The position numbers and the translations under genes are program-made. A DNA stretch of 64,000 bases from Siphonodentalium dalli (Eukaryota; Mollusca; Scaphopoda; Gadilida; Siphonodentaliidae): contig CP136069.1 of the NCBI GenBank assembly GCA_032622095.1, positions 52,994,760 through 53,058,759 on the forward strand, read 5' to 3'. Shown here in pieces: positions 38,549 to 40,916 of this stretch; position 1 is the first letter of the stretch; every line of letters starts with the position of its first letter. Under the pieces are notes generated by a model. It worked only from the letters and a program-made list of their open reading frames with translations. It searched no databases and had not been told where the DNA came from.

Positions 38549-40916
38549 AACTTATGATGAATCTGTAATCCAACAGCCAGAGGGAACCTGTCGCGAAGAT
38601 GAAGGCAAAGGGTTACGCGCCAGATACCATATGGAAATGTGCCTATCGGGGGAAATCGGGTTGGGCGACCCCAAATATCGACCGTGGAACGACACGGGAC
38701 GGACCGACACCGCTAGTACGAGCAAAATAAACTGCGCCGACATGAAAGCCCACACATGGCCCTGCGCTGGTACCGGCATCCTATCATAAATATTGTTGGC
38801 CACGCGCCGCGGTGCTCCACAATTGTAAATACCAGGTCATCAGATTGACATGTAACAGGAAGACAATGAGCACATCTCAAATAGCATGATGAATTACCGG
38901 TCCGTTGTTAAAACCACACAGATACAAACGGCCAAGTTCAAATATCTCTTCCTTCTAAACCTTGGTTACGTGACGTCGCTAAACACCGGAATGGTGCCTG
39001 CCCTAGGCGTAGGAAAACAGGCATACAAAAACACACAGACAACAGACAGGACGCGACGAAACCCGAGGCAGAGAACGCAAGGGCCATCATGATAACACGG
39101 AGGAGCAACCGGCGATATTATTAAGTAGTGACAGGCGGCGTGACAACCGACTGACCAAAGGAAGGTAAAACGTCAAGCTAGCCCTAGCGAAGGAAATCAA
39201 GCGAGAAGGATAAACGATGGATTACGCGTAACGCACCGACGACGATGAAATTATGCCTGCCAAAAACTGAGGAAGCAAGCTCACTGAAGCCTCGATATAT
39301 CGGCGAATATTATGTAGTGACATAGCGTCTTGCCCTAGGCGTAGGAAGACAAGACGAGCCAGCCCTAAGCGTAGGAAGCTAGGCATATTTAAGCATGTTC
39401 CAAAGAAGCCGGTGAACATTAGAAACATATATAGAGTCAAGTAGCCCGGGCCTATGCGTAGGAAACCGGTCGGACATGGCCTAAGCGTAGGGACCAAGCC
39501 GAAATTAATGAGTGGACCAAGGATGCCGGTGACTAAATACATGCATGTAGCATTGAGGAACGAAAGACGAGCCTATGCGTAGGAACCCGTCGGACTTGGC
39601 CTATGCGAAGGAACCAAGCCATATTGAACAAATCCTGGCGGAGGCCAGAGCCAGCACGGAACACGCCCGATGAACAGCCCGACAAATTGCGCTCTACCTG
39701 TACAACCGTGGAAGACGACGCGTGCCGAAAGGTAAAATTTCGTAACGTAAGACGACACTCGCACGCCAAATTTTAGATCGGGTTCCAAAAATTACATAAG
39801 CCGGATCGGAAACAGCGGATGGATAAGAAAACCCACACTCAGCCATGGACATGTCCGTACAATAATCGACTTCCCTCGGCAGCGAAATTAGTGAGTACCG
39901 TAATGAAAGTGACGGCAAGGCGCTGGAATCCCAACTTGAGAACTGTCGGGAAATGGATGGCGGCAGTGTCGAAAACATTGGGACTATTCCAAGGTTCCCC
40001 CCATGGATGTCAAACCAAAATCAAGTACTTTTCAAAAACTTTCAATTCAAGCAATGGTTCGAATAACTTGAAGCACTTCCCAGACTACTGATTATAGAAA
40101 TATTTGCATTGAAGACGAGCGAGGGAATCCAGCTCTCACAAAATGGTCCGATGCACATCTTATGCTTTGATTGAATGAAGAATAAAACAATAATGCCGTC
40201 CATACTATTACATGTATTGCATTAAATACAAGGGCATACTAGTTTGAATCAAGAGTGTGCATATATTTATATATCCAATTACTGAACATTCATATTTATA
40301 TGATGTACTAAATGATGTACAATGCAAAAATTAATTAACTCTTATTTTCAGGGTGACATATAGGCCCACTAGGGCCGGGTGCGCGATGTAAACTAAATGT
40401 CTAAAAAAAAATTGTAATTTAACAAGCACATGTCACGTAAATAAAAGATATTACTACTACTAGTGGAAAGAAAATATGATCCGGACTGATGATTGTCCCA
40501 TAGATAACTTGATAAAATTTATTAAGTAAAAAGAAGAAATATAGCTGTGGAAATATCTAGCTTGATAATGCGTAGGAAACAAGCGTGTGTCAATAAGTCA
40601 ACACTTGAACACGTAAATCAAGCACGCACAGCACCTTAGTGTGTTTGAGAGACAATTCAATGACATTCAAGGGCTTGAAAATTCCAAAACCTAATCAAGC
40701 ACATGCAAGATATACCGGTACAAGCACACTTATGAATTCCGTATTCTTATGGGAAGCGAGGGGAATTGGTGCGTGGAAATATAAATTGCGACGAGTTACG
40801 GAGGGAAGGAGTGACCTACATGCTAAACGACGAAAAGGCATGGAGGAGTGACGGAGGGGCAAAGCCCCTGCCACGACCCGAGAATATTGATACATGTATA
40901 AGCAGTGACAACGAGG
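38549..40916 (-). promoter_or_regulatory. Ngaro 2.4-kb spacer with a stem-loop array
   Basis: No convincing ORF lies between the hydrolase and gag. Eight copies of a loop CCTAnGCG(T/A)AGG(A)A lie at 39002, 39334, 39364, 39451, 39480, 39572, 39600 and 40564. Each is closed by its own short stem: GCCTG/CAGGC, CGTCTTG/CAAGACG, CC-AGC/GCT-GG, CCGG/CCGG, TGG/CCA, GACG/CGTC, CTTGG/CCAAG and GCTTG/CAAGC. The changing but complementary stems around a constant loop indicate selection for structure in DNA or RNA. It could serve packaging, translation of gag far from the 5' end, or recombination; none is shown. Confidence 0.6.

Follow-up and report, generated by a model that had tools for sequence, protein, structure and literature searches.

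What marks the transcript of a Ngaro-type retrotransposon as its own? We know of no description of how DIRS/Ngaro-type retrotransposons choose their RNA, and the question is raised by a 64,000-nucleotide (nt) window, the whole stretch of DNA analysed here, from the scaphopod mollusc Siphonodentalium dalli (assembly GCA_032622095.1, contig CP136069.1, positions 52,994,760 to 53,058,759). The window carries a Ngaro-type retrotransposon on its minus strand, with an array of small hairpins between its hydrolase and gag genes. A sequence-only reading had noticed this array as eight stem-loops at 38996-40584, each with a constant loop inside its own complementary stem, and had proposed RNA packaging, internal translation of gag, or a recombinase or host-factor site as possible roles.

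All data come from this one genome (2.23 Gb, nine contigs). Comparison of the copies demonstrates covariation of the hairpin stems, a bias towards the sense strand, a position in the leader, an arrangement in doublets and retention of the array by gene-less relatives with Ngaro-type ends. We favour the explanation that the array acts in cis as a multivalent RNA signal, placed in the leader of one Ngaro lineage between hydrolase and gag, which would serve packaging, and we give this explanation as a whole a probability of about 0.5. That the array is a real RNA structure appears very probable and that it acts in cis in retrotransposition seems likely, while the narrower proposal that it serves RNA packaging specifically falls a little short of an even chance.

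Seven hairpins between hydrolase and gag

The array extends from 38995 to 39620. The motif had originally been written as it stands on the plus strand, which is not the orientation that counts, as the element is read in the sense of the minus strand. In that sense each unit consists of a variable outer stem, a 5′ U-rich bulge, CCNA-[YGCN]-UNGG and the closing arm of the outer stem. Seven exact CCTANGCGWAGG cores start on the plus strand at 39002, 39334, 39364, 39451, 39480, 39572 and 39600; in the element sense they read CCTACGCNTAGG (one reads CCTTCGCATAGG), with a U-rich stretch before each. Scanning both strands of the window with at most one mismatch gave 14 matches versus a shuffle mean of 0.48, namely the seven cores, six echoes on the opposite strand (the core is near-palindromic) and one unrelated match at 28658. 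With a covariance model built from eight hairpins, the seven hairpins listed first below matched in the window, all at E<0.05, and nothing else did at E<=1.

39593..39620, minus strand: hairpin 7, first in the RNA sense, inner stem of 3 bp (cmsearch 23.2 bits, E 0.0029)
39566..39591, minus strand: hairpin 6, doublet partner of hairpin 7 (cmsearch 20.5 bits, E 0.015)
39473..39500, minus strand: hairpin 5, in a doublet with 39444-39471 (cmsearch 26.9 bits, E 2.9e-4)
39444..39471, minus strand: hairpin 4 (cmsearch 20.8 bits, E 0.012)
39358..39384, minus strand: hairpin 3, in a doublet with 39327-39355 (cmsearch 18.6 bits, E 0.049)
39327..39355, minus strand: hairpin 2, among the hairpins used to build the model (cmsearch 43.3 bits, E 1.1e-8)
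38995..39023, minus strand: hairpin 1, last in the RNA sense, single, among the hairpins used to build the model (cmsearch 38.9 bits, E 1.6e-7)
40561..40584, minus strand: decayed outlying copy, which keeps a 5-bp outer stem (GCTTG/CAAGC) and has lost the inner stem (folding z-score -1.36)

Seven of the eight copies first counted are thereby recovered, and the eighth, at 40561-40584, is a decayed copy which we do not include in the array, as it has no match to the model at E<=1. No better supported is another degenerate copy, near 39184, which has no model match and folds worse than most shuffles (z +1.22). Rfam covariance models gave no match at E<=1 in window positions 38700-41000. What had been described as one constant loop has to be divided: the CGCN/YGCN loop and the U-rich bulge on its 5′ side are indeed constant, while CCTA/TAGG forms an inner stem that varies.

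For the comparison with other elements, a genome search with the window reverse transcriptase (RT) gave at least 87 places, with 85 of 2742 candidates scored, and these were grouped by their identity to the window RT into N1 (88-100%), N2 (71-72%, together with a 62% element that carries the same array), N3 (60-61%) and others (about 50%). Spacer DNA upstream of the RT was taken from 8 + 12 elements. Back-to-back doublets, which the sequence-only reading did not report, are present in N1 and N2 elements and in the non-coding elements described below. Among 92 sense intervals between neighbouring hairpins, 26 are 1 or 2 nt long, none is 3-20 nt and the rest are longer (model matches with E<=0.1 from 13 sources, three intervals between opposite-strand echoes set aside, homologous doublets in related copies being counted repeatedly). 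An internal duplication is visible in the window, where 39447-39500 and 39568-39620 are 87% alike.

Covariation and probable folding of the sense RNA

The claim that each core is enclosed by its own complementary stem holds when the arms are exchanged between hairpins. In the six window hairpins with a strict core, the outer arms form 30 of 36 possible Watson-Crick pairs with their own partners versus 22.4 ± 2.3 when swapped, a value reached by 10 of 10,000 permutations of which only 720 orders are distinct, so that the observed order lies close to the best one attainable. Among 37 unique hairpins of the non-coding elements the figures are 162 of 222 pairs versus 140.7 ± 4.3 (0 of 10,000), within single non-coding elements 13 to 362 of 10,000 permutations reach the observed pairing, and for unique N1 hairpins 1 of 10,000 does. 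As the search for the best register is repeated in every permutation, this is a fairer test than an alignment made by the covariance model, which is fitted to the structure.

The model was searched against the window and 26 other loci, 14 loci of the non-coding type or its kin, and 14 alignment sources, and the resulting alignment, fitted to the structure as it is, holds 105 sense rows, 70 of them distinct, with opposite-strand echoes excluded. Over both stems of the 70 distinct sense hairpins, 94.2% of the cells are paired versus 85.1% after shuffling, and 57 cells carry double changes versus 8.4 (0 of 500 shuffles for either); the number of pairs with any double change is 6 versus 3.7 (26 of 500). 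When the outer stem is considered by itself, 93.2% of its cells pair versus 82.0% and 47 carry double changes versus 6.6 (0 of 500 each), with 5 versus 2.7 pairs showing any double change (14 of 500). When the partner strand was slid along in the model alignment (112 rows, 74 of them distinct, including seven echoes), the signal was gone. In a set of 27 representatives all inner cells are paired, a result that is partly built in, given that three of the four inner pairs were fixed, three odd cores were dropped and the hairpin of locus L032 was picked for its folding; in this set the number of paired cells, the number of double-change cells and the covariation are each reached by 0 of 500 shuffles, pairs with a double change by 14 of 500 and further types by 5 of 500.

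Within the core, positions C, C, A, Y, G, C, T, G and G were fixed by the selection, which leaves the third inner pair as the sole free test; it is a Watson-Crick pair in 114 of 117 sense cores (TA 93, GC 18, AT 3), and AA, GA and TG occur once each. The sequence-only reading had allowed for the stems to stop covarying once more copies were aligned, and this did not happen, either in the permutations or in the 70-hairpin alignment.

Thermodynamic support for the hairpins is modest in the predicted folds: the seven window hairpins folded alone have z-scores from -0.43 to -2.66, with the inner stem present in the lowest-energy fold of five. The strand that folds is indicated by the mismatches. 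With the register set on Watson-Crick pairs alone, and three of 62 hairpins with weak stems omitted, interior mismatches in the remaining 59 hairpins are G.U in the sense RNA in 16 cases, G.U only in the antisense RNA (A.C in sense) in 4, and of other kinds in 15; the model alignment gives 38 versus 5 cells (sense G.U versus A.C), a count in which the model may favour G.U. Given this excess of G.U over A.C, the folding molecule is probably the sense RNA.

Ngaro elements and their gene-less relatives

The window element has the order A1, GDSL/SGNH hydrolase, hairpin array, gag, RT/RNase H (RH), a putative tyrosine recombinase (YR), B1, A2 and B2 in the sense direction. Its split direct repeats, arranged as A1...B1 A2 B2 (A 433 bp, 98.8% identity; B 125 bp, 96%), are those of the Ngaro definition as given in excerpts of PMC9210276 and PMC6681497.

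41620..42052, minus strand: A1, 5′ terminal repeat (98.8% identity to 33884-34316 across 433 bp)
40917..41675, minus strand: SGNH/GDSL hydrolase open frame, 5′ of gag (Pfam PF13472 7.9e-8, PF00657 1.5e-6)
37424..38551, minus strand: gag region, three overlapping open frames (open frames and tblastn to other copies)
35888..37405, minus strand: reverse transcriptase/RNase H (Pfam RVT_1 5.1e-7, above cutoff; RT_RNaseH 0.0018, below cutoff)
35024..35990, minus strand: putative tyrosine recombinase, two overlapping frames (Phage_int_SAM_4 1.8e-5, N-terminal SAM-like, below the Pfam cutoff)
34311..34435, minus strand: B1 (96% identity to 33561-33685)
33884..34316, minus strand: A2 (repeat comparison with A1)
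33561..33685, minus strand: B2, 3′ end of the element (repeat comparison with B1)

By eye, the N-terminal part of the hydrolase (MVRVLVLGHSF..., at about 41582) lies in a different frame in the window copy, and gag shows zinc-finger-like spacings at about 37547-37646 (C-x8-C-x4-C-x3-H and C-x2-C-x3-H-x4-C). These CCCH/CCHC-like spacings, which we interpret as putative RNA-binding fingers, gave no Pfam match at E<=0.05, and the C-terminal frame of the putative tyrosine recombinase gave no Pfam match. Elsewhere in the window lie a 122-bp tandem repeat (27242-27806, 4.6 copies, 97%), with similar-looking open frames in locus L025, and long trinucleotide arrays of TCA and AAC (59795-60322 and 63861-63996).

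Genome-wide, the short exact pattern occurs near the rate expected by chance (75+105 places versus 69+78 for a backward control), so that only clusters and a longer pattern are informative. The longer pattern, CTTGN{2,5}CCNACGCNTNGGN{0,1}CAAG, has 91 matches versus 0 for the reversed control, and its free third inner pair is TA in 52, GC in 36, and GT, TT and AA in one each. Almost half of the matches (43 of 91) have a listed RT of at least 60% identity downstream, its matched stretch lying 1.65-2.8 kb away, and all 43 are on the strand of that RT. The comparison used 24 of the 25 RT rows at this identity, leaving out C6:62876148, which belongs to the same element as C6:62874855; 14 of the 24 have an upstream match. 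The ten rows that have none comprise seven N3 rows, a further row from an element that another row represents, one N2 fragment and the N1 copy L010, in which the model finds the array and the hairpin that the pattern would match is mutated. The other 48 matches are near no listed RT: 39 of them (20 of 27 clusters) coincide with array places of the non-coding elements, and the remaining nine (seven clusters), including C3:128857552 (L019), fall outside these. The sequence-only reading had asked for a covariance-model search and had considered that the motif might not be enriched in other copies of the element; besides the seven window matches it is found in copies L010, L013 and L028 and, by the longer pattern, across the genome.

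The position of the array is shared with more distant relatives. The N2-type spacers of L029, L030, L031 and L034 contain 6, 7, 5 and 6 strict cores, and in all four the array is upstream of gag. A match to the hydrolase precedes it in L029, L030 and L034, whereas L031 gave no such match. Across these 24 N2 cores the inner stem is CCGA/TCGG in 17, CCTA/TAGG in 4 and CCAA/TTGG in 3, around the unchanged CGC of the loop, so both strands vary in a stem that had been counted with the constant loop. The RTs of N1 and N2 are about 72% identical, and blastn of the window against N2 spacers recovers only parts of gag and hydrolase, while the hairpin plan persists. Between their hairpins, N2 arrays also carry a linear motif, GTAAACTTT, which occurs about five times (L030, sense 3325-3900). 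The N3 elements L032 and L033 share one similar hairpin, TTGCATG-gttt-CCAC-tgct-GTGG-CATGCAA, which is beyond the reach of the model.

Other families have repeated motifs of their own. L037 (1256-1690) and L039 (sense, 1308-1725) bear 8-9 copies of a different palindrome, CTAGC-RCTNTA-GCTAG, in a run that stops about 95 nt before an open frame presumed from its position to be gag; the palindrome pattern has 50 matches versus 14 in the control. We did not count these palindromes as covariation, as their stems hardly vary. In L041 (1569-2180), five CATGTA[GC]CTGC copies with short hairpins lie downstream of a hydrolase-like frame. Sense scan matches in the distant families L035-L048 occur near the shuffled rate and none has the YGCN plan (the strict matches of L036 are AT repeats), and six pattern matches in viral contigs include no relative.

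Ten additional array clusters (L009, L012 and L020-L027) lie within elements that are related to each other, up to 97% alike. Four could be delimited, at 7.4-8.5 kb: L012:724-8512, L020:670-9145, L024:364-8372 and L027:397-7772. In L012, which also holds a 361-bp duplication, the split direct repeats are 394 bp (A, 99%) and 156 bp (B, 98.7%). Searching L009, L012 and L016-L027 with the Ngaro proteins of the window by tblastn gave no match at 1e-4, and the longest open frame is within the range of 20 shuffles in L012, L020 and L027 and slightly above it in L024 (171 versus 167 aa), so that the family has no recognisable RT or YR gene of its own. At the DNA level (E<=0.01), L012, L027 and L022 resemble the window Ngaro only in the array and in that part of the 3′ end which surrounds B, in short stretches of 73-83%; the 3′ end region itself (the flank before B1, B and the junction) is 73-79% identical in stretches of 60-97 bp. 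For L022 there are further short matches, to DNA that flanks L028 and to a far-upstream portion of L035. The family seemingly represents a large non-autonomous Ngaro partner.

In the four delimited elements, sense cores number 6, 6, 11 and 9 versus 0, 0, 1 and 1 antisense cores, and all the sense cores are internal. Copies with two ends keep the array between them in 11 of 12 cases, and the array is present with 15 of 19 five-prime and 19 of 21 three-prime places (ends from 19 of 29 five-prime and 21 of 28 three-prime rows, weak partial matches being omitted; 31 array places from 93 rows, adjacent rows of an array being merged). Repeats that stand alone were considered as counter-examples. Of 40 scored A matches (among 354 candidates), 7 are A1 with an interior, 3 are the A2 of an element, 26 are A followed by a spacer and B2, and 4 have none of these in the places listed, a classification of A copies and clusters which drew on 11 of 29 five-prime and 6 of 28 three-prime rows. 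In the 26 array-less copies A runs straight into spacer and B2, and no 3′ interior precedes A; they look like solo remnants rather than counter-examples. Such A+B2-alone copies are numerous (354 and 405 first-look candidates, with 40 scored each).

The favoured explanation, its rivals and known systems

In the explanation we favour, each unit of the sense transcript would fold into an outer stem whose sequence is almost free, a U-rich bulge on the 5′ side, a CC-rich inner stem of 4 bp and a tetraloop of the form YGCN. A trans-acting protein of the element, most likely Gag, would read loop and bulge by their shape, and the many bound copies may mark the transcript for particle assembly and reverse transcription. 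For the non-coding elements the array would be the ticket into the particles of an autonomous element. Gene-less copies, some of them recent (two are 97% alike), keep the ends and the array, which matches what is expected of a cis-acting signal for mobilisation in trans. A tentative extension, which we consider possible rather than probable, is that lineage-specific structured RNA repeats before gag form an identity code read by each element's own Gag, and that a parasite would need only ends and code. In this view the code would consist of YGCN hairpin doublets for N1, N2 and the non-coding family and of the CTAGC-RCTNTA-GCTAG motif for L037/L039.

Several results weigh against this explanation. 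The 656-nt sense region has ordinary stability (z -0.14), and its lowest-energy fold contains both stems in only four of seven hairpins (HP1, HP4, HP6, HP7), with a fifth (HP3) in the centroid fold; the antisense fold is no better (z 0.38). In the model alignment a single inner pair changes on both sides, which 403 of 500 shuffles equal, and the inner-stem counts reflect in part how the cores were selected. Swapping arms is uninformative in N2, where the stems are alike (unique N2 hairpins 7084 of 10,000; single N2 elements 2807-3335). The hairpins are kin by descent from one genome, so that shuffles overstate significance. Among four N1 copies the core varies like the rest of the spacer (6 of 72 versus 40 of 499 sites; stems 3 of 87, bulge 0 of 24), as would be expected of dead copies, and this comparison lends little positive support. 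The array was matched in all but one of the two-ended non-coding copies, the exception being C8:162896726. Finally, 14 sampled spacers of families with RTs of about 50% identity (L035-L048), together with L032 and L033 (61%), have no model match at E<=1, which indicates that the wider Ngaro lineage manages without this hairpin.

The same absence bears on the rival that survives best, in which a host factor would read the array as a signal for nuclear export or RNA localisation, so that the long, unspliced transcript could exit the nucleus; the non-coding elements would have kept it on that account too. Simple retroviruses have such a host-read export signal in their constitutive transport element. 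A sense RNA, which the array probably forms, and retention by gene-less elements fit this reading equally, and a loop and bulge kept constant over several copies would suit a host RNA-binding protein. We prefer packaging because the sampled distant Ngaro families live in the same host without this hairpin (14 spacers) and because L037/L039 has a different repeated palindrome in the corresponding place; a lineage-specific sequence fits a reader encoded by the element better than a shared host factor. By this indirect argument we consider export unlikely.

A palindromic unit could also have been multiplied by duplication within the spacer, its complementarity inherited and under no selection. 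Duplications are visible both in the window (39447-39500/39568-39620, 87%) and in L012 (361 bp), and N1 cores vary as much as their surroundings. However, inheritance alone explains neither why the arms differ between units and still fit their own partners nor why TA, GC or AT stands at the third inner pair, and the hairpin plan has outlasted a divergence of N1 and N2 that leaves only parts of gag and hydrolase detectable by blastn in the spacers. This neutral origin is rather improbable.

Less probable still is a role at the DNA level, as a palindrome bound by the tyrosine recombinase or by a dimeric host factor, or as hairpins extruded from single-stranded complementary DNA. Tyrosine recombinases can read folded single strands, as with integron attC sites, the 12-bp core is near-palindromic, and the symmetric change from CCTA/TAGG to CCGA/TCGG would fit a dimeric site too. 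Against this, the outer stems stand at unequal and variable distances from the core, 2-5 nt on one side and 0-1 nt on the other (27 representatives, within the range permitted by the scan), and no symmetric half-site spacing that includes the outer arms was found; the flanks vary yet remain complementary, G.U exceeds A.C in the sense strand (16 versus 4, and 38 versus 5 cells in the model alignment with its possible preference for G.U), and sense cores in the four delimited non-coding elements are all internal. The recombinase site of the sequence-only reading is accordingly disfavoured by internal cores, unequal gaps and non-Watson-Crick pairs that favour folding of the sense RNA. Control of gag translation (by internal entry, shunting or repression), which would suit a leader in which, as in N2, some 280 nt separate the end of the array from the gag ATG (about 3950 and 4228 in L029), has a similarly small probability, as elements with no recognisable gene, and seemingly nothing to translate, keep the array.

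If the identity code is real, tyrosine-recombinase retrotransposons would possess a packaging code, and the literature searches made here turned up no description of one. Nor did these searches list any publication about RNA structures that act in cis in Ngaro elements. A covarying array kept by gene-less partners may make the RNA choice of Ngaro elements testable with a short RNA and one protein, and may serve as a criterion by which a non-autonomous element is assigned to the machinery that mobilises it.

Among the closest known systems are the retroviral psi and the packaging signal common to autonomous and non-autonomous long terminal repeat (LTR) elements. Like the array, these are leader RNAs upstream of gag which gene-less relatives keep; unlike them, the array belongs to a tyrosine-recombinase element with split direct repeats in place of LTRs and a hydrolase gene upstream. 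A literature search for the signal common to autonomous and non-autonomous LTR elements found no paper. In form, the array resembles the Xist A-repeat, in which some eight short hairpins share a constant tetraloop and are set apart by spacers. The A-repeat belongs to a host long non-coding RNA that recruits SPEN, and its sequence is unrelated to that of the array.

Packaging-signal-mediated assembly is described for RNA viruses and hepatitis B virus in the excerpts consulted of PMC6281560 and PMC7612645. There, as in the array, several short stem-loops per genome share a loop motif in a multivalent arrangement, but the viral signals are dispersed and tied to a coat or core protein, whereas the array is clustered in one spacer, includes doublets 1-2 nt apart and is known from sequence. 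SIRE, according to the part of PMC6681497 consulted, is a non-autonomous relative of VIPER of about 185 + 30 + 220 bp. Like the non-coding family, it is a gene-less partner of a tyrosine-recombinase retrotransposon that has kept its ends, while the family described here is 7.4-8.5 kb long and bears the hairpin array. Amphibian Ngaro elements, in the excerpted description of PMC9210276, share with the window element RT/RH, a YR (putative in the window element), an SGNH hydrolase and the arrangement A1 ... B1 A2 B2; their hydrolase follows YR, whereas in the window element it precedes gag, with the array between the two.

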